IMG/VR virus record: IMGVR_UViG_3300035703_000110
Coordinates: 1-57,536 of that record
Source of the DNA: a virus
DNA length: 57,536 bases
Direction: 5' to 3' (one strand)
The notes under the pieces are model-generated. The model was not told where the DNA came from. It saw only the letters and a program-made list of their open reading frames with translations, and made no database searches. The stretch's first letter is position 1; each line of letters begins with the position of its first letter. The position numbers and the translations under genes were made by a program. Shown piece after piece: positions 5,307 to 47,609 of the stretch.

Positions 5307-6278
5307 ATGTCCAACGAACTGCTACAACTCAACCCCGGCTCTGTCAAAAAAGCAACCGTGGGTATTTCCTCCGGCGACCTGTGGAAAATGCCACGCGATC
5401 GTATCCGTGTGATCGAGGGTTTCAACGTGCGCGAGAAAGACGCGGACTACAAGGCCAACGTGCGCAAGTACGCGGACAGCATGAAGGCCAACGGCTACGA
5501 TGAAACCAAACCGATGGCCGGTTACGTCTTTGAAGAAAACGGCGAACACTACATTGGCCTGATTGACGGTCACACCCGCTTGGATGCAGTTGACTTGGCA
5601 AACAAGGAAGGTGCAGAAATCTCGATCATCCCTGTGGTGACAAAGGCCCGTGGTACATCCATGGAAGACATCACGATTGGCTTGGTCACCAGCAACAGCG
5701 GCGCAGCTCTGAAGCCTTTGGAAATTGCGAAGGTCTGCAAGCGTTTGGTGGGCTACCAAATGGATGTGAAAGACATTGCCGCCCGACTCACGCTGACCCC
5801 GGCCTACGTCAACCAGTTGCTCGATTTGTTGGCTGCACCCAAGGCAGTGCGTGAACTGGTTGCCAATGGCACTATTGCCGCCACCCTGGCAATGGACACC
5901 CTGAAGAAACACGGCAAAGACGCGGCCAAGATGCTGACTGCCGGTGTGAAAGAAGCCAAGGTTACCGGCAAGACCCGCGTAACTGCGAAGCACGTCAAAG
6001 CCGCCACAGCGCCTAAAACGAAGCTTGCCAAGGGTAAGTCCAGCACCAAGGCTCAAAAAGCTGCCCAAGAGGCTACGCCGAGCACCACAGCGCCTACCGA
6101 TACCGACAACCTGTTGGAATTGGGCCGTGTCTGGATTGAAGAACACCAAACAGGTCACGCACCTGAAATGGATCGTTGCAAAGAAATGCTGGCCTTCATT
6201 GCCGGTGTAGCCATCGAACGAGTCCAAGCGCTGTTCCCTGCCCCGGCTGCAGGCAGTGCGGACGATGAGCAACTTTGA
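5307..6278 (+). CDS. ParB/Spo0J-like DNA-binding protein
   Basis: 323 residues. The N-terminal ParB N-domain (about 20-120) shows VIEGFNVREK, YADSMKANG and IDGHTRLDAV, the usual ParB/Srx motif set. A KorB-like helix-turn-helix follows (DIAARLTLTPAYVNQLLDLL, ~150-180), then a basic linker and an acidic C-terminus. No ParA partner lies next to it, so it is more likely a phage DNA-binding or regulatory factor than a partition system. It ends DDEQL, one of the acidic EL-type tails common in this block. Confidence 0.88.
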   Translation: MSNELLQLNPGSVKKATVGISSGDLWKMPRDRIRVIEGFNVREKDADYKANVRKYADSMKANGYDETKPMAGYVFEENGEHYIGLIDGHTRLDAVDLANKEGAEISIIPVVTKARGTSMEDITIGLVTSNSGAALKPLEIAKVCKRLVGYQMDVKDIAARLTLTPAYVNQLLDLLAAPKAVRELVANGTIAATLAMDTLKKHGKDAAKMLTAGVKEAKVTGKTRVTAKHVKAATAPKTKLAKGKSSTKAQKAAQEATPSTTAPTDTDNLLELGRVWIEEHQTGHAPEMDRCKEMLAFIAGVAIERVQALFPAPAAGSADDEQL

Positions 6279-32044: not shown

Positions 32045-34003
32045 TTAGAAGTTGTTAGCCGTGTTGCTGATCTGCTTCCAGCTTCCGGCCGCGCCAGTTG
32101 CATCGCAAACCACGGCGTTGAAGTCCGCAATGGTGCCCCGCGTAGTGGCCGACTTCTGAACCGTCATCGCGCCAGGCGTGCGAGCAATGCCGGTACCGCC
32201 AATGTCAATGCCGATGCCCATGCAGTTGCGGATTGTTTTCGACGTTGCCGCACCGCCAAACGCATCATTTGCATACAGACCCTTGCCCGATGGAATGGTC
32301 AACTCGAAGCCGCCAGTCGTGGCCTCGATGTGATTGCCGACTTGATACCCGTTGCGCTCCGCATAACCAATGTAGAGGGCGTGCGAGTTAGAAGCCGACT
32401 TGTAGCCCTGTCCGCAGTTGATAGAGATATAACTATCAATGGAGGTCGAGCAAGGTGAGCTGCTGGCCGTGTGGTTGACGCCATAGCGCACGTTCTTAGT
32501 CATCAGCTTGCCGATTTGCAGTGTGTCGATGCGGCCGGCGTTGTTGATGCAGATGGACACGTTTTGGTAAGCAGGTGCGGAATAGCTAATGCTTTCAATT
32601 TGCACGTTGTTGACCGCTGCGCCACTTGTGACCAACAGCACGTTTGCCGTTGCCGTGTTGGCAGGCGTCATAGCCAGTTTGCCAGTTTGTAAAGAGTCCA
32701 CTGTCATACCGCTGGTGACGTTAATCATGGGCTTCGCTGACACTTGGCTCCAAGAAATATCACCGATAACGACTTTGCCAGCGGTGGAGGCCGTAGCGCT
32801 CACGCAGCCGGGGTCGTTAATCAGGTTAATCAGACCTTGACCGCCAGAAATGCGGCCACCCACTTTGCCAACAAACAAATCACGAATGGTGCCCAGCGCA
32901 GAGCCAAAGTATTTGAACGCAGTGAGCGAGCCGGATGGGTACAAGCCATCTGCTACCACTACGCCATAGTCACCTTGCTTGTAATTGGTGGGCAAATATT
33001 GGGGATAGTCGCTGTTACCCACCGCCACCATGTCATCACCGGTGTATCCGCGCACGTTGCGCACTGAAATATCGTCTCCGTGGCCTTGGAAGTGGACGCC
33101 ATCAGAATCGGTTTCAAAGTCAAGATTGGCAATATCTGCGTCATAAGCACCATACAGCGCATAGACGTACTTCTGGGTATTCACCCCCGCCTGCTCTTGA
33201 ATCTTGAGGCCCTTGACGTTCCAGAGAAAAACGGCGTGGCAGTTGAAGTTATCGGAGCCGGTCAGCGCGGTGCGGTTGTAGTCAAACGCTCCGCCCCTGA
33301 GCGAAATGTTTTTGTTTGCAAGGGCAAAGGTGATCGTGCCGGTTGCGGGACTTGTCAGGCCTTCGGCTGGTGCATCGTCCGCAGTCAGCTTGTACTTGAA
33401 TGTGAGGCCGCTTACCTCGGTCACGATGTGAGCGCCGTTATAGGCGTAAGGCGTAGCACCCAACACCACGACAGCTTTGCCAACTTGAGGCAGGTTTACA
33501 GCGTCGGCAAGAGTCGCCACAACAGTAATGCCGTCAGCACTGGTAAGGCTGGAAATTGCCTTGTTTTCGGCGTTCCACTCGCTGTTGCGCAGGATATTGC
33601 GCCGTGCGCCCGCTGCGTTTTTAATCGCAGTGCGAGGGCCGAGAACCAGCGATGTGTCGTCATAAATCGTTAGCGGAGCATCCACATACACATCACCCGC
33701 CACATCAGCCAGCACTTCGCCTTGACCATCGAGCCACGCCTGAATCAATGCCCTGTTTACGCTTGCCAGCGCGGGAACGTTTGGAGTCAGGCCAAGGACT
33801 GGAAGCCGCACAACGCCATCACCCACACCCAATGCTCTCTCTCCGGTGAGCTGATTGGTTTTTACCGCAGCGTAATGTGTCTCTTTGCGGTCTTGATCGG
33901 CAACAACCAAACCACCGTCCAAGCCAACCATGACACGGGAATATCCCTCGGGTGCATCTGGCAACTTGTCTGGATTGACGTGTTTCAAGAGTAAGTCTTG
34001 CAT
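32045..34003 (-). CDS. Tailspike-like right-handed beta-helix protein
   Basis: 652 residues. The N-terminal ~120 residues form an attachment domain. Then beta-helix rungs appear: KNISLRGGAFDYN, FETDSDGVHFQGHGDDISVRNVRGYTGDDMVAVG, which is the Asp-rich pattern of GH28/pectate-lyase-like tailspikes. It probably recognises or cleaves a host surface polysaccharide. Catalytic activity is inferred from the acidic cluster only. Confidence 0.83.
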   Translation of the reverse strand: MQDLLLKHVNPDKLPDAPEGYSRVMVGLDGGLVVADQDRKETHYAAVKTNQLTGERALGVGDGVVRLPVLGLTPNVPALASVNRALIQAWLDGQGEVLADVAGDVYVDAPLTIYDDTSLVLGPRTAIKNAAGARRNILRNSEWNAENKAISSLTSADGITVVATLADAVNLPQVGKAVVVLGATPYAYNGAHIVTEVSGLTFKYKLTADDAPAEGLTSPATGTITFALANKNISLRGGAFDYNRTALTGSDNFNCHAVFLWNVKGLKIQEQAGVNTQKYVYALYGAYDADIANLDFETDSDGVHFQGHGDDISVRNVRGYTGDDMVAVGNSDYPQYLPTNYKQGDYGVVVADGLYPSGSLTAFKYFGSALGTIRDLFVGKVGGRISGGQGLINLINDPGCVSATASTAGKVVIGDISWSQVSAKPMINVTSGMTVDSLQTGKLAMTPANTATANVLLVTSGAAVNNVQIESISYSAPAYQNVSICINNAGRIDTLQIGKLMTKNVRYGVNHTASSSPCSTSIDSYISINCGQGYKSASNSHALYIGYAERNGYQVGNHIEATTGGFELTIPSGKGLYANDAFGGAATSKTIRNCMGIGIDIGGTGIARTPGAMTVQKSATTRGTIADFNAVVCDATGAAGSWKQISNTANNF

Positions 34004-34052
34004 TTGAGTAGCTCCTTTAAAAGACTTGATTATGCCTAGACTCAGCTTGAAG

Positions 34053-35873
34053 TTACAACCAATCTACGCCATCCCAACGCTTCAGTGACGCATTTACCCA
34101 ATCCAGACCATCCCAACGCTTGAGCGAGGCGTCTACCCAACCACCGGCTGTATAGACTTTCACGTAAAACGCGGGGTCGGTCAGACTAACTCCAATGAGT
34201 GCAGCGGTGTCCGAGTCGGGGGATTCACTAACAACGAGTAGACCTTGCGCAAAGGCTTCCCCTGTGGCCGTCATTGTGTCAAAAAGCTCTACCTCGGCAC
34301 ACGACACAGCGCCAACCGCGTAGACCTTACCTGTGGCTGTAGCGCTATCCGAACCTACTTCGACCGCAGCAAACATGCCGAGGATCAAAGCTTGCCCGGT
34401 CATCACCACACTGTCAGCGCCACTTTCTACAGCACTCAGGAAACCCGTGCGAGGATCACTTGTGGTTGCGCCGGTTCCTGCAAAGGTATCAACGCCTGTC
34501 TCAGTGGCAGCGATTGCACCTTGGACCCGGACAGCACCTGCGCCCGTGAGCGTGTCTGCCCCGGCTTCAGTGGCGATCAGTGATCCCTGAGTGCGGACAG
34601 TGCCCGAGGCTGTGATTGTGTCAGCGCCTAGCTCGGCAACCGACATTACGCCTTGGACCCGGCTGACCCCTAAGCCTGCAAACGTGTCACTACCGCTTTC
34701 GGCAACAGTGGTTGCACCTTGGACCCGAGCAACGCCAGTAGCGGTCACCGTGTCAGCGCCTGTCTCAGTGACAAGCAGTGAACCGGTACGCGTATTTTCT
34801 ACAGCTTGACCCGAGCCCCCGAAAGTGTCCGTGCCTGTTTCAGCAACAGACAGAGCGCCTCGGGCAAGGGTAGAGCCTGTGCCGGTGAGCGTGTCCGCGC
34901 CTGCCTCGGCAACGGTCAACGAGCCCTGTGTAAAGGTGAGGCCCGCACCCGTGAATACGTCACTGCCTGTCTCGGCTGCAAGCAAGGAGCCCTGCACACG
35001 GATCACGCCTGTGCCGGTGAGCGTGTCAGCGCCTGTCTCGGCAACGGTCACCGAGCCCTGCACACGGCTTGCACCAGTGGCTGTGAAGCTGTCAGCTCCG
35101 ACTTCAGTGGCAGTCAGTGCGCCCTGGACAAAAGCAAGGCCGGTAGAGGTGAGCGTGTCAGCGCCTGTCTCGCCAACGGTCAACGAGCCCTGTGCCAACA
35201 TGCCACCCGCAGCGGTCAACGTGTCAGCCCCAGCTTCAGTGGTGGTCAGCGTGCCTCGGGCAAGGGTAGCGCCTGTACTGGTGAGCGTGTCGCTACCTGC
35301 CTCGGCAATGGTGATTGCACCTTGGACCCGAGCTGTGCCCGAGGCTGTGATTGTGTCAGCGCCCACCTCGGCAACCGACATTGCGCCTTGGACCCGTACA
35401 GAGCCCGAGGCTACCGCGCTATCCGTACCTGTTTCAACAACGGAAAACGAGCCTTGCGCCAATGTACCACCGGCAGCGGTGAGCGTGTCAACGCCTGTTT
35501 CAGTGGCGCTCAGTGACCCGGTACGCGTGACAGCGGCTACCGTGCCCGAGGATGCAAAGGTATCGCTACCTGCCTCGGCAACGGTCAACGAGCCTTGGGA
35601 AAGGGTATCGCCTGTACTGGTGAGCGTGTCGCTGCCTGTCTCGGCAACGGTAAGTGACCCGGTAACAGAGGCAGCGGCTACAGTGCCCGAGGCTGCAAAT
35701 GTGTCAACCCCGGCTTCAGTGGCGGTCAGATTGCCGGTAACCCCGGTTTGTGCAGCCGAGGCTTCCCAAAACTCTTGAGCTATTAAGTGGGAGTTGGTGT
35801 ACGCGTTGCGCTTGACTAGATCACTTCCCTTCAAGCGGCCTACGTTGCCACGCCGGAAAATGCTAGTCGGCAT
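34053..35873 (-). CDS. Repeat-rich tail fibre-like protein, 606 aa
   Basis: After a 46-residue N-terminus, 22 copies of a 22-25 residue repeat follow, consensus GSLTVAETGADTLTxTG then a hydrophobic-Q end. The C-terminus has a duplicated 13-residue unit, WVDASLKRWDGLD and WVNASLKRWDGVD. The regular small/acidic/Thr-rich repeats suggest a fibrous beta-solenoid or stacked beta-sandwiches. It is grouped with adsorption genes. No match to a characterised fibre is claimed. Confidence 0.8.
   Translation of the reverse strand: MPTSIFRRGNVGRLKGSDLVKRNAYTNSHLIAQEFWEASAAQTGVTGNLTATEAGVDTFAASGTVAAASVTGSLTVAETGSDTLTSTGDTLSQGSLTVAEAGSDTFASSGTVAAVTRTGSLSATETGVDTLTAAGGTLAQGSFSVVETGTDSAVASGSVRVQGAMSVAEVGADTITASGTARVQGAITIAEAGSDTLTSTGATLARGTLTTTEAGADTLTAAGGMLAQGSLTVGETGADTLTSTGLAFVQGALTATEVGADSFTATGASRVQGSVTVAETGADTLTGTGVIRVQGSLLAAETGSDVFTGAGLTFTQGSLTVAEAGADTLTGTGSTLARGALSVAETGTDTFGGSGQAVENTRTGSLLVTETGADTVTATGVARVQGATTVAESGSDTFAGLGVSRVQGVMSVAELGADTITASGTVRTQGSLIATEAGADTLTGAGAVRVQGAIAATETGVDTFAGTGATTSDPRTGFLSAVESGADSVVMTGQALILGMFAAVEVGSDSATATGKVYAVGAVSCAEVELFDTMTATGEAFAQGLLVVSESPDSDTAALIGVSLTDPAFYVKVYTAGGWVDASLKRWDGLDWVNASLKRWDGVDWL
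34245..35735. repeat. 22 degenerate 66-75 bp coding repeats
   Basis: The region encodes 22 successive units of 22 residues (66 bp), with a few 25-residue versions. Homologous units make the antisense strand open as well, which explains long spurious plus-strand frames there. Such an array can change copy number by recombination. Confidence 0.85.
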
Positions 35874-42743: not shown

Positions 42744-44366
42744 CTAAACCTCGGCTTCAGCGTTTCGCTTGTGCAGCCTACGAATGAGCTGTTTGAGAAT
42801 TGAGAAAAGGTTGTCTTGGTTCAGCTCTTTTTTCACTAACCCCTCGCAGATTAACTCATCAATCGTGCCAATCGCTGTGATGAGTTGCACCACCACCGGG
42901 TGTTTCTGACCCTGGCGGGCCAAGCGCCCGACAAGTTGTAGGTACAACTCCAATGACCATGTGAGGTCAAAAAAGACAAGGTTGTGCCCACCGTGTTGCA
43001 AGTTCAAACCGTGCCCACCAGATTTAGGGTGAATTAACAACATGGGTATCTTACCCGCATTCCAATCCTTGACGCATTTACCTTCGGTATCCATTACTAC
43101 CGCTTTTGGAAATGCCTTTTTCAAACGAGCCAATGACGACTTGAAATGGTAGGCAACGAGTATTGTTTTGCCGGGTAGCGAATCTCGAATTTCTTTCAGT
43201 GTCTCAATCTTGTGGTCGTGGATATGGTGAACCTTTGTCACCTTCGTCAAGTCTTCGAATTCAATATCCCCTTCCATGGTTGTCTCATACAAAACGCCCG
43301 AGGCTATTTGAGTCAACTTTCCAGTCAGGCCCGCCGCTGTTTCGGCTTCAATAACTGAGTCACCTACTTTTACGACCAACTCAGTTTCGAGTTGCCGGTA
43401 AATCGCCATTTCATGTTCGGCTAAGACCACAGGTTTTCGGATCACCAATGGCTCATCCATTTTTAGGTAATCCTTGGCCTTCATCACCAAACACAAGTCA
43501 CTGATTTTTTCTAGTATCTCGTTTTCTGCGTTTGGTCGGGGTTCGTACTTCCGGGTCCACTTGTTGTGATTGAACCATTGATTGCGAAAGGCGGTGATGT
43601 TCTTTCCAAGGCGCTCACCCAAGTCCAACAGATAAATCAGGGTCCACACATGCTCAATAGACTCCGCAGCAAACGTGGCTGTGAGCCCGTGGAGCCGCGT
43701 AATTAGGCCGGGTGTACGTCTGACCTTGGCGAGTGATTTAAAGACGTGTGTGCTCGAATCTTTGAACAAGCTGATTTCATCAATGATGACTGTCCGGTAA
43801 GGCCATTTGCCTTTGTGGAAATTCACGAGCCATTCAAGTTGCTCTTTGTTGATGAAATGAATGTTTGTTGGGCTGCGTGCGAGGTCCGCACGGATTGCAT
43901 GGCGTTCGCGGGTTTCATGCGTTGGGCCAAGGGCTTGCTGTATCTCCGCTTCAGTTTTGCCGTTGGACAACATCATGTCCCGGTTGAATGAACGCTCTGC
44001 AGCTTCTTTACGGTCACGCGCACGCGCCGGAGTTAGTCTAGGGTCGTTGTCACTCTCACGAATCAACGTGTAATTCATGTGAGCAAGGTGTTGCCACAAA
44101 CCAATCTCGGTAGGCCATGTGTCGGTCATCACACGCACAGGCCCAATGACCAAGATTTGCTCTTTGGTTATCTCACGCAAAAGCCACGCAATCAAAGTCA
44201 AAGAGGTGACCGTCTTACCCAAACCTAAGTCGATAAAAAGGTGCGAGAAAGGGTTGTCACGCAAAAACTCGAAGCCTTCGTTTTGGTAGACGTGCATATC
44301 GCTACGCCCACGTATCACGTTGGCTAACTTAGTTTTCACGTAATCATCTAAAGAGAATTTTTGCAT
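42744..44366 (-). CDS. SNF2-like superfamily 2 helicase
   Basis: About 540 residues from ATG 44366 (or TTG 44381). SF2 motifs: Q-like VYQNEGFEFL, Walker A LFIDLGLGKTVTS, DEAH-type TVIIDEISLFKD, and C-terminal GGHGLNLQHGGHNLVFFDLTWSLELYLQLVGRLARQGQ (motifs V-VI). It is typical of phage replication modules, next to VRR-NUC and polymerase. Likely remodels DNA or forks. Confidence 0.9.
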   Translation of the reverse strand: MQKFSLDDYVKTKLANVIRGRSDMHVYQNEGFEFLRDNPFSHLFIDLGLGKTVTSLTLIAWLLREITKEQILVIGPVRVMTDTWPTEIGLWQHLAHMNYTLIRESDNDPRLTPARARDRKEAAERSFNRDMMLSNGKTEAEIQQALGPTHETRERHAIRADLARSPTNIHFINKEQLEWLVNFHKGKWPYRTVIIDEISLFKDSSTHVFKSLAKVRRTPGLITRLHGLTATFAAESIEHVWTLIYLLDLGERLGKNITAFRNQWFNHNKWTRKYEPRPNAENEILEKISDLCLVMKAKDYLKMDEPLVIRKPVVLAEHEMAIYRQLETELVVKVGDSVIEAETAAGLTGKLTQIASGVLYETTMEGDIEFEDLTKVTKVHHIHDHKIETLKEIRDSLPGKTILVAYHFKSSLARLKKAFPKAVVMDTEGKCVKDWNAGKIPMLLIHPKSGGHGLNLQHGGHNLVFFDLTWSLELYLQLVGRLARQGQKHPVVVQLITAIGTIDELICEGLVKKELNQDNLFSILKQLIRRLHKRNAEAEV

Positions 44367-44640
44367 TTTCGAGGCTGTCAATAACGTGAACTTCTACGCC
44401 TTGTTTTTGTAAATCCGCGTGTCGAAGTATTTGCTGTGACTTGGGTTCTTTGTTGGGGGCTTTGAATTCAACCAACATGATTCGTCCATTGCGTGCGCAG
44501 AAGCGATCAGGAAAACCCCGGCGCGATTGGCTCACAACTTTTTCAATGAACCAACCCCGTGTCTTTGCGTATTCTGTGGCCGGTCCTTCGATGTCGTCTA
44601 TTTCCTTGACAGTGCGTTGATAGAAAGCTTTAGTGGTCAT
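44344..44640 (-). CDS. VRR-NUC domain nuclease
   Basis: 98 residues, a complete stand-alone VRR-NUC: GFPDRFCARNGRIMLVEFK carries the PD...ExK metal-binding core, followed by the SQQILRHADLQKQGVEV helix and strand. Stand-alone phage versions act as Holliday junction-type nucleases. Overlaps the helicase by 23 nt. Confidence 0.9.
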   Translation of the reverse strand: MTTKAFYQRTVKEIDDIEGPATEYAKTRGWFIEKVVSQSRRGFPDRFCARNGRIMLVEFKAPNKEPKSQQILRHADLQKQGVEVHVIDSLENAKILFR

Positions 44641-45476
44641 AGATCGTCTTCACAATTCGTCTGCGCCGTCTTCCATGTAGGCACTGATAAAAGTTTTTGC
44701 GACTTCCGAGTTGATTGCGTTTCCATAGGCACGCAGGCGTCCCACGCGTCCGGGAGCCCCATGAGCCAACGGGAATGTGCCGGGTTCAACTGCCCTCCAC
44801 TTTCCATCTTGGCAGTAGAGCCAGTCAACATCACGCCATCTACCGTTAGTCGGGCCGGACCTTGCACCATCTTTACCATTTGAGTCAAGCTGCGCCCCGT
44901 CATTCCCGCTGTAATTCCCGTCCCGCCCCGTGTCCCGTCCGTGGCTGCAGGTGTCGGCCAACCCGCTAACTGAGCTACCACGTCCAACGTGTCCGTGCTT
45001 ATTTTGCCGTTCCGTATCCGACCACCGATGTAACCGCCCTTGTAATCCCTCGTGCTCGGAGTCGGCCACGAACCATAGTCGTTGTCGGATGTTCGGTGAG
45101 CCGACGCCCGCAGCGCAAAGATCAACAGCCCCGAAGGCGTACCTCGATGCTTCCATGTCAGCGTGTACAAGGTCGAGCCACTCAAGACCATCTTTGCTTG
45201 CAACCTGTTCGCCAAAAACCGTTGGAGGACGGCACTGTTCGATGAGGTAATGCCAGGTCGGCCAAAGATGCCGCTCGTCAGCAAATCCAGCTCCTTTGCC
45301 TGCCGCGCTGAAAGGTTGGCAAGGGCATGAACCTGTCCATACGGGGCGGTCGTCGGCCTAACCTGCTTGTCGCAAGGCTCGGCTCCAAACTCCGATTCCT
45401 GCAAAGAAATGGCATTGGGTATATTTTTTGAGGTCGTTGGGTGTGACATCTTCAATACTTCTTTCGTCAACATCAC
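44637..45476 (-). CDS. Alternate-frame protein overlapping the methyltransferase gene
   Basis: An uninterrupted 279-codon frame within the C5-methyltransferase locus. It has repeated WPTP motifs (SWPTPSTRDYKGG; GWPTPAATDGTRGG) and a GGQLNPAHSRWLMGLPDAW segment. From memory, these resemble a phage protein family with WPTP...D and LNPxxVEWLMGxP motifs found near dcm-type genes. Its TGA overlaps the ATG of VRR-NUC, the same junction style as its neighbours. Initiation site uncertain; function unknown. The same DNA encodes conserved methyltransferase residues in another frame. Confidence 0.6.
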   Translation of the reverse strand: MMLTKEVLKMSHPTTSKNIPNAISLQESEFGAEPCDKQVRPTTAPYGQVHALANLSARQAKELDLLTSGIFGRPGITSSNSAVLQRFLANRLQAKMVLSGSTLYTLTWKHRGTPSGLLIFALRASAHRTSDNDYGSWPTPSTRDYKGGYIGGRIRNGKISTDTLDVVAQLAGWPTPAATDGTRGGTGITAGMTGRSLTQMVKMVQGPARLTVDGVMLTGSTAKMESGGQLNPAHSRWLMGLPDAWDACVPMETQSTRKSQKLLSVPTWKTAQTNCEDDL

Positions 45477-45603
45477 CGGGTGAAATAAAACCGGCTTTTA
45501 TTAAATTACGCAACCACTTTGCTGCAAAGGGATCAATTTCGTTGTAGTAAGTTGGTTTTATATTTTTTGAAACGTAAGTCACAAGGTACTCTCTTTCCGA
45601 CAC
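44650..45603 (-). pseudogene. C5-cytosine DNA methyltransferase with internal amber codon
   Basis: The frame has motif I (FAGIGVWSRALRQAG), motif IV (GSCPCQPFSAAGKG with the catalytic Cys), motif VI-like FGEQV, motif VIII NIRQRLWFV and motif X RVGRLRAYGNAI, over 317 codons. Where the family has Trp after AG, there is a TAG at 45358-45360; one G-to-A change explains it. No frameshift is needed, and both sides are in the same frame. TAG is used as a true stop in other genes here. The 81-residue fragment before the stop lacks the catalytic Cys. Confidence 0.85.
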
Positions 45604-47609
45604 TTGGCGCAGAGCTTGTAATTTAATGGCACAGCGTCATCCTCAATCCACTTTTCACGCATATTTTTTGGAGTCTTGCCACACCGGGCAATACCCACGG
45701 GCAAAAGAACCTCGTGGTAAGTCTTCTGGTCAGCCAAACGGCCCAAAAACACGCCTGTGCGGCCCGCCAATGAAGGGTCAAGGGTAGGTAGGCCAATGTC
45801 TTGAAGAATGGCCGTAGCTTCACGCAAATACCACGAATAGTTGATGTCTTTTGGAAACTCTTTCGGCAAGGTCATCAAGGCCATTGCACCGTCACTCTTA
45901 GGGACCGCGTTACCACTCAATTTGTAGACTAACCCTGTCTTGTGTTTGGTTCCGTAAGCCCACCGAACGGCCTTGCCGAGTAGCTTGCCGTCTTGATCCA
46001 ACGCGCCGCCTTTTACGGTGCGTATCGTGACAAATTTGCGGATGTCGCGGCAAGCCATAATGGTTTGTTCGAGTGGGGTATTGAACTTCAGCAATGCAAT
46101 CACTGCGTCAATAGTGATTTCGCAGTTCGGGTTTTTTTTCATCCCGTCAGCACCGCGCAACCCTGGACCCGCAGGCGCAAACGCACCCTTGGATTTGACT
46201 TTGCCGTCCATACCGATTGCAAGAAAGTTGTTGACATCACGGGAGTGCAAAGAGCGGAGGTAAGTCTTTTCCAGTTCCAACAACGTGTCGAATTCCCAAT
46301 CCATCAAAATGACAGAATAGTCCTCTCTACGGCCACGGGGCACGCGGGTGATAAAACCGTCAGTGTTGGCAGATATGACTTCAAATCCGGCCAACCACAA
46401 ACGCTCAATCAGCATCAGCAAACTCAATTGCCCGGTGATCGTTGTTTGAATCATCATGTCCGGTGAGTAGACTACGGAGAAAGCCGATCCAAGCTTTCCA
46501 TACAAGCCGTTCAGGGTCAGCTTCAATGACTCCGCAGTACCCTTGTCACCGGCTTTCTTGGCAGCCAATCGGCGCTTGTAGATGCTGCGGTAAACGGTCA
46601 TGAACACATCACCGATATGCTTTGGTGAGTACCCACCATTCAAAATCAAACTCGGGTAGTAACTCGCCACGTCAGCATCAATTAACTCAAAGTCGTCATC
46701 CGTCACATAGGTAGTTTTGCTTTCAGAAGAATGCAACCCACCAATACCCATGCGAAAGACGTTGTTGCCAAATTTAATTGTCAGATCATCAAGCGCCGGG
46801 GGTGTTTCTACGATGAGTTTTCCATTCACAACGAATGGGGATGTCGTCACAATTTCAAAGGCTCGTTGGAGTTGCTCTGTATGAAATTCAAGGTACAGCG
46901 GAGCCACGTATTTGAATGTCTTGGGGCGGGCTTCAGGTCGGTAAAGTTTTTTGCGTGTGACGCGCTCCACTTCCTTTTTAAGCACGGCTTCTGCTACCTG
47001 TGGACCGGATTTACTGCGCAAATCAATCTCGTATTCATTACTCATTGAAGCACGTAGATCAATGCCTTCTTTTAGCTCAAAGTATTTGGCACGAGTAAGG
47101 CCGAGGTCGTTACGCAGGTAGGTAATCATTGTTTCCCGTTTAGCTTCCGTGATGCGGTCATCCGGGCTAAAGGGTAAGTCCATCATTGTCTCGTAATGCA
47201 AGCGCCCGCCGTACATTTTGAGGCTTGGGCGTTGAGGTGATCCAGGTGATACCTCCATCAAGTCAATGTGGTCAATCCACGCGGGTAAGCTGACGTTGTA
47301 TTGCTCGTAAAACTGCCACGGCTTGATGTCAGAATGAATGATCGTGTCACTCGCTTGCTTCAGCTCACCGTTGGTTGCGCCGCTCATTGCAAGGGCAATC
47401 ATAGGCAAGTCATAGTTGATACCGTTAAAGCTAATCACACGGTACTTTTTAAAGGCACGAGCGATGCCTTTCAAATCCAAAACTGAGTCATTCCATTTCT
47501 CAAAATGCAAGATTTCTTGAGTGTCAACGTCCATGAAACCAATTGACCAATAGTTGACGTAGCACTCGGTATCGTGAACCGCTGTTGGTCGTTTTTCGGT
47601 GTAATCCAT
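45579..47609 (-). CDS. Family B DNA polymerase with exonuclease domain
   Basis: 676 residues. Exo I HDTECY (residue ~12) and Exo II ISFNGINYDLP. Polymerase motif A DADVASYYPSLIL (~315), motif B LKLTLNGLYGKLGS (~370), motif C ISANTDGF (~415), where the usual DTD reads NTD. It is shorter than cellular B polymerases, and no obvious protein-priming TPR motif was identified. It copies phage DNA with the Prim-Pol/helicase. Confidence 0.88.
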   Translation of the reverse strand: MDYTEKRPTAVHDTECYVNYWSIGFMDVDTQEILHFEKWNDSVLDLKGIARAFKKYRVISFNGINYDLPMIALAMSGATNGELKQASDTIIHSDIKPWQFYEQYNVSLPAWIDHIDLMEVSPGSPQRPSLKMYGGRLHYETMMDLPFSPDDRITEAKRETMITYLRNDLGLTRAKYFELKEGIDLRASMSNEYEIDLRSKSGPQVAEAVLKKEVERVTRKKLYRPEARPKTFKYVAPLYLEFHTEQLQRAFEIVTTSPFVVNGKLIVETPPALDDLTIKFGNNVFRMGIGGLHSSESKTTYVTDDDFELIDADVASYYPSLILNGGYSPKHIGDVFMTVYRSIYKRRLAAKKAGDKGTAESLKLTLNGLYGKLGSAFSVVYSPDMMIQTTITGQLSLLMLIERLWLAGFEVISANTDGFITRVPRGRREDYSVILMDWEFDTLLELEKTYLRSLHSRDVNNFLAIGMDGKVKSKGAFAPAGPGLRGADGMKKNPNCEITIDAVIALLKFNTPLEQTIMACRDIRKFVTIRTVKGGALDQDGKLLGKAVRWAYGTKHKTGLVYKLSGNAVPKSDGAMALMTLPKEFPKDINYSWYLREATAILQDIGLPTLDPSLAGRTGVFLGRLADQKTYHEVLLPVGIARCGKTPKNMREKWIEDDAVPLNYKLCAKCRKESTL

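Follow-up and report, generated by a model that had tools for sequence, protein, structure and literature searches.

The locus examined here raises the question of how two long protein-like frames can share one strand of a viral genome when one of them, a C5-methyltransferase, is interrupted by an amber codon. It lies in the window, i.e., the whole 57,536-nucleotide stretch of IMG/VR virus record IMGVR_UViG_3300035703_000110 that was analysed. An earlier note on this DNA had proposed that the phage has lost DNA methylation and kept an independent second product, or that amber suppression makes both. The reading preferred here, with a probability of roughly 80%, is that the locus encodes a C5-cytosine DNA methyltransferase of the M.EcoHK31I type, composed of two polypeptides whose genes overlap in frames 0 (alpha) and +1 (beta).

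Alpha (44650–45582, minus strand, as are all features of the locus; 310 codons if read through) is the catalytic polypeptide and matches PF00145 (E 3e-9) and PHROG 363 (E 1e-84). Its likeliest start is the GTG at 45582, which overlaps the stop of the preceding DNA polymerase gene (45579–47609, PHROG 1252) as GTGA. As the earlier note had read from the sequence, the alpha frame contains motif I (CHFFAGIG, 45391–45414), motif IV with the catalytic Cys (GSCPCQPFS, 45307–45333), motif VI (GEQVASK, 45193–45213), the motif VIII region (RQRLWFVAD, 45061–45102), and motif X (GRLRAYGNAI, 44713–44742), all located by sequence and alignments. In an AF2 model with TAG read as Trp, the catalytic core is mostly predicted at pLDDT 75–97 and could be aligned with M.HhaI over 202 residues (Z 13.7, rmsd 4.6). 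Residues 185–233 are disordered in the model, at the place where the recognition domain should be. The motif order of PHROG 363-type alphas is seemingly permuted, with II/III (YYNEIDPxAAxWLRNL...GDVDERSIEDV) before motif I (CHFFAGIG), in the window at 45582–45250. For such an alpha, hhalign keeps motif I as an insert, and the AF2 model matches M.HhaI only from its residue 32–34 onward.

The next gene encodes a VRR-NUC-like endonuclease/resolvase (44344–44640, PHROG 93 and 5702). The order of polymerase, methyltransferase pair, VRR-NUC resolvase, and helicase (42744–47609) is that of Xanthomonas phage FoX4. Elsewhere in the window, a plus-strand ORF of 323 aa (5307–6278) is almost wholly antisense to a minus-strand ORF of 316 aa (5322–6272), and two big minus-strand ORFs of 606 and 652 aa (32045–35873) beside the head genes have no PHROG match at 1e-5.

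Beta (44637–45449) lies within alpha, is read in the +1 frame, and is 270 aa long. The earlier note had described this frame as open for 279 codons from 45476 to 44637 and joined to the next gene by an ATGA overlap. Both features are present, but the product is probably shorter than that extent, the likeliest start being the ATG at 45449 and not the GTG at 45476. The WPTP and LNPxxxxWLMGLP motifs, which the earlier note had associated with a phage family, are also present, and the families matched are PHROG 31772 (4e-35) and PHROG 1008 (4e-31). The beta frame has matches in 228 phage records, all but two of them at less than 60% identity.

The openness of this frame was assessed in 76 distinct loci sampled via the alpha frame alone, and the expectation was obtained by shuffling synonymous codons within each gene. 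No stop interrupts the beta frame anywhere in the overlap in 73 of the 76 loci, with 4.2 such loci expected, although these loci share common ancestry and the figure is therefore not a count of independent events. Altogether, the beta frame contains 3 stops against 214 expected, while frame +2 contains 935. Relatives with a freely interrupted alternate frame, which would have spoken against the earlier note, are thus not what was found. A Shine-Dalgarno-like AGAAG (45458–45462) lies 8 nt before the beta ATG and is formed by alpha Arg-Ser codons. Among the 67 homologues whose beta ATG lies inside the alpha sequence RSIEDV, 30 have a match of 5 bases or more (3.5 expected) and 52 have one of 4 bases or more (13.9 expected). 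The sites of the homologues are composed of alpha Arg and Ser codons, e.g., AGG AGC, and the window copy is weaker than theirs. The open frames, together with the embedded Shine-Dalgarno sites, indicate that beta is a real gene.

Selection acts on both frames, as the earlier note had supposed, and passes from one to the other along the gene. In the non-overlapping N-terminus, the rates at codon positions 1, 2, and 3 are 0.020, 0.028, and 0.202, so that the alpha wobble position evolves fastest. In the module region behind motif VIII, they are 0.169, 0.056, and 0.046, and the beta wobble position is the fastest. Overlap-aware dN/dS values, estimated from 46 disjoint pairs with bootstrap, are 0.22 for alpha and 0.51 for beta in the catalytic part, 1.04 (0.88–1.19) and 0.37 (0.24–0.51) in the module region, and 0.38 and 0.18 in the C-terminal part. 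The same pattern was observed in the PHROG 363 type and in other alpha types. Beta is therefore under purifying selection in all regions (dN/dS < 1). Both frames are coding, and the module region is constrained in beta only; there, behind motif VIII and at the usual site of the target-recognition domain, alpha is neutral. Chance or G+C-rich codon bias is an extremely improbable reason for the openness of the second frame. The region is indeed fairly G+C-rich in relatives (0.55–0.68), but the stop counts and the dN/dS of the beta modules refute a chance open frame, and the embedded Shine-Dalgarno sites also stand against it.

The relationship between the two products is indicated by motif IX. 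Ordinary single-chain C5-methyltransferases carry this motif in frame (LTxREYARIQTFP, LSPREAARLQGFP), and their +1 frame has no long ORF, whereas alpha-type enzymes have no in-frame motif IX and are accompanied by a beta with an LNPxxxxWLMGLP-like sequence. In the window, the motif-IX-like sequence of beta (LNPAHSRWLMGLPDAW, 44742–44789) is spaced as is motif IX of the ordinary enzymes. Among 170 fetched methyltransferases, the in-frame motif IX pattern is absent from 161; the +1 frame is open in 155 of these, as judged over the measured stretch, the overlap being measured short in a few of the 170 enzymes. The remaining nine have the in-frame motif and a broken +1 frame, and both motifs together occur in 0/170. 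Within the sampled set, motif IX is thus carried in frame or by beta, and in no case by both. When beta was aligned with ordinary enzymes by hhalign, LNPxxxxWLMGLPxxW fell onto motif IX in all three runs, with weak scores (E 0.02–0.2, probability <3%). The PADLOC model PDLC03718 corresponds to alpha in its first 163 positions and to beta in positions 280–354, and its C-terminus matches beta with E-values of 0.017 and 5.7e-4. Since the partner methyltransferases are without motif IX and beta has a motif-IX-like sequence, beta is best regarded as the other subunit of the same enzyme. No in-frame fusion of the beta WVEWLMG motif to a methyltransferase was found among the best 80 of 352 genome loci. 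PDB sequence searches with beta gave nothing useful. The AF2 model of beta alone has a pLDDT of 59, with only a helix (70–90) and a hairpin (95–117) predicted confidently, and its comparison by VIA-align returned no informative fold match, a result that excludes nothing.

Overlapping pairs of this sort are widespread among phages and bacteria, occurring in viral contigs as well as in the genomes of bacteria from many phyla. With few exceptions, the fetched betas are read in the +1 frame of an ORF for a C5-methyltransferase, and these partners comprise at least five alpha subtypes. The exceptions are a single genome locus that was scored as +2 and a few betas that are situated at contig ends or are unclassifiable. 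Most phage records looked at annotate one frame only, as 'DNA methyltransferase' or 'hypothetical protein'. Intact alpha/beta loci are unannotated in the deposited records of Salmonella phage SAP012 (L041, 2377–3181) and Pseudomonas phage Riah (L313, 1116–2003). One contig (L011) contains tandem methyltransferase copies, with three alpha matches in succession.

Beta of the window carries two WPTP modules, one at 44961–45068 (WPTPSTRDYKGGYIGGRIRNGKISTDTLDVVAQLAG) and one at 44859–44960 (WPTPAATDGTRGG...). By regular expression, betas contain 0 to 5 modules, mostly 1 to 3, and those of phages 5399 and Haboob differ by one module. The module WPTPxxRDYKGGYxGGRxRNGKxSxDTLDV is 70–90% identical beside alphas that share just 29–40% identity in an 85-aa catalytic segment. 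Many of the loci with RDYKGGY were fetched by that very pattern, which biases the frequency of the module but does not affect the finding that it occurs beside distant alphas. A second module family (WPTPMAHEARLGYQ) is common to a virus and a Sphingobacteriales genome.

The amber codon (TAG, 45358–45360) is codon 75 of alpha, at a position occupied by Trp (TGG) in 87 of 90 homologues, the residue that the earlier note had expected there. It is a single G-to-A change from the Trp codon. The same base makes residue 31 of beta Arg, where at least 90% of homologues have Gly, so beta has not been left untouched. The window is the only stop-bearing sequence among 91 aligned alphas. Of the 97 near-invariant columns, 60 of which fall after the stop, its alpha retains 92, and all motifs downstream are conserved. 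A stop that strikes a nearly invariant beta Gly in an otherwise intact alpha is taken to be recent, erroneous, or suppressed. Neither version of the 27-base stretch over the amber site was found in viral_contigs by an exact-pattern scan, and megablast returned no phage record covering 80% of the locus. Wholesale recoding of TAG found no support and is unlikely, in line with the earlier note: TAG terminates 6 of the 69 tiled ORFs, one of them the helicase gene that lies two genes downstream, long standard ORFs are present, and no tRNA gene was detected within the window.

Three accounts of the stop were weighed. The methyltransferase may have been lost recently through a real amber, leaving beta a bystander bound to decay. 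This account, which we hold tentatively and at somewhat below even odds, is favored by the single step from Trp and by a second natural alpha break, that of Pseudomonas phage PMG1, in which beta is intact; the loss must, however, be recent, since beta remains open throughout and alpha is otherwise intact. In PMG1 (L318, about 1164–1180), (CGAT)3 stands in place of (CGAT)2, and this 4-nt duplication causes a frameshift in alpha immediately ahead of the beta ATG; the annotation given to beta there is 'Mte8-like', and the repeat could allow slippage-based switching. Alternatively, TAG may have arisen through faulty sequencing or assembly, or may represent a minority variant, in which case the phage would make an ordinary intact enzyme. 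The retained alpha columns, the damage to the beta Gly, and the absence of stops from the other aligned alphas fit such an error, but natural breaks do occur, as in PMG1, and we regard it as possible but somewhat unlikely. Readthrough in the natural host, with the amber tuning the dosage of the two subunits, would explain why all motifs past the stop are conserved; it is nevertheless unlikely, as the window has no detected tRNA and uses TAG as a normal stop, and no other aligned homologue has a TAG. Unless the stop is erroneous or suppressed, the truncation of alpha at codon 75 has probably left the enzyme of this contig without activity.

The two remaining proposals concern beta itself. According to one, it is a separate protein with its own function, overprinted on a methyltransferase gene and kept after the loss of alpha, much as the earlier note had suggested. 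Beta is indeed open where alpha is broken, in the window and in PMG1, and lone 77-aa beta C-termini occur at four loci (L016, 2120–2350; L020, 3041–3271; L021; L023) where the alpha frame has many stops. Each of these copies, which consist of one module and LNPDWVEWLMG, nonetheless lies directly behind an intact alpha/beta pair. Moreover, nearly every fetched beta is inside an alpha and carries the very motif that these alphas are without. As beta looks like the other half of the enzyme, its retention as an independent product is improbable. The other proposal, a hidden HNH element of the ShiLan type, was rejected: neither HNH nor any other significant Pfam domain was detected in 56 betas, and the overlap lies on the catalytic motifs, with no insertion.

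The preferred reading, a split methyltransferase, suggests the following division of labor. Alpha would hold the catalytic core, with motifs I–VIII and X, and beta would be translated from an ATG of its own, with a ribosome site embedded among the alpha codons. Beta would contribute the motif-IX-like segment along with, in most cases, one to four WPTP modules. Both polypeptides would then assemble, alpha performing the methylation and beta completing the small domain and probably picking the target site. Given where selection acts, the odds are about even that the beta modules choose the methylation target. It is equally a balanced question whether these loci represent an overlooked large class of C5-methyltransferases, with specificity in an overprinted beta, WPTP cassettes traded between phages and bacteria, and alpha-frame DNA that encodes a passive disordered linker in that region. 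Should beta be the subunit that recognizes the target, the annotated gene would not by itself suffice for understanding, cloning, or assaying the specificity of hundreds of orphan methyltransferases of phages and bacteria. As a natural example of extended dual coding on one strand, the locus is also unusually clean, and it includes a ribosome site concealed in the codons of the outer gene. Among the open-licence papers searched, we found no report of the spread of this layout, the module cassettes, the neutral alpha region, the hidden ribosome site, or the division of labor between beta and alpha.

The overlapping kind of split methyltransferase is itself already known from one or two enzymes. 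The small polypeptide of M.EcoHK31I is reportedly located in another frame inside the large one, as is beta in the present locus, and M.EaeI, like M.EcoHK31I, is a two-polypeptide m5C methyltransferase (YGGCCR). Multispecific C5-methyltransferases of Bacillus phages (SPbeta, phi3T) possess exchangeable recognition modules between motifs VIII and IX; their modules are in one chain and one frame, whereas here they are in beta. In phage annotation, PHROG 363 (alpha) and PHROG 1008 and 31772 (beta) appear as separate proteins under the single label 'DNA methyltransferase', with no statement that two frames form one locus. An out-of-frame ORF in a phage methylase gene is also known from ShiLan, where the hidden HNH endonuclease is a homing insertion (PMC11855218), but beta spans nearly the whole methyltransferase and has no significant Pfam match. 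M.AquI is likewise a C5-methyltransferase in two polypeptides, the second of which holds part of the variable region and motifs IX–X according to PMC3404938; in the present locus, motif X remains in alpha and the genes overlap almost entirely. For M.EcoHK31I, the same paper assigns motifs I–VIII and X to the large polypeptide and motif IX to the small one (PMC3404938), and, compared by this description, alpha agrees in having motifs I–VIII and X and no in-frame motif IX. It also locates the TRD predicted for M.EcoHK31I within the large polypeptide, which disagrees with a choice of target by beta modules. Yet several differences are present: alpha has an apparently permuted motif order and an amber and belongs to an orphan phage enzyme, while beta, at 270 aa, is the constrained frame in the recognition region and carries exchangeable WPTP modules, usually one to four in relatives and two in the window.
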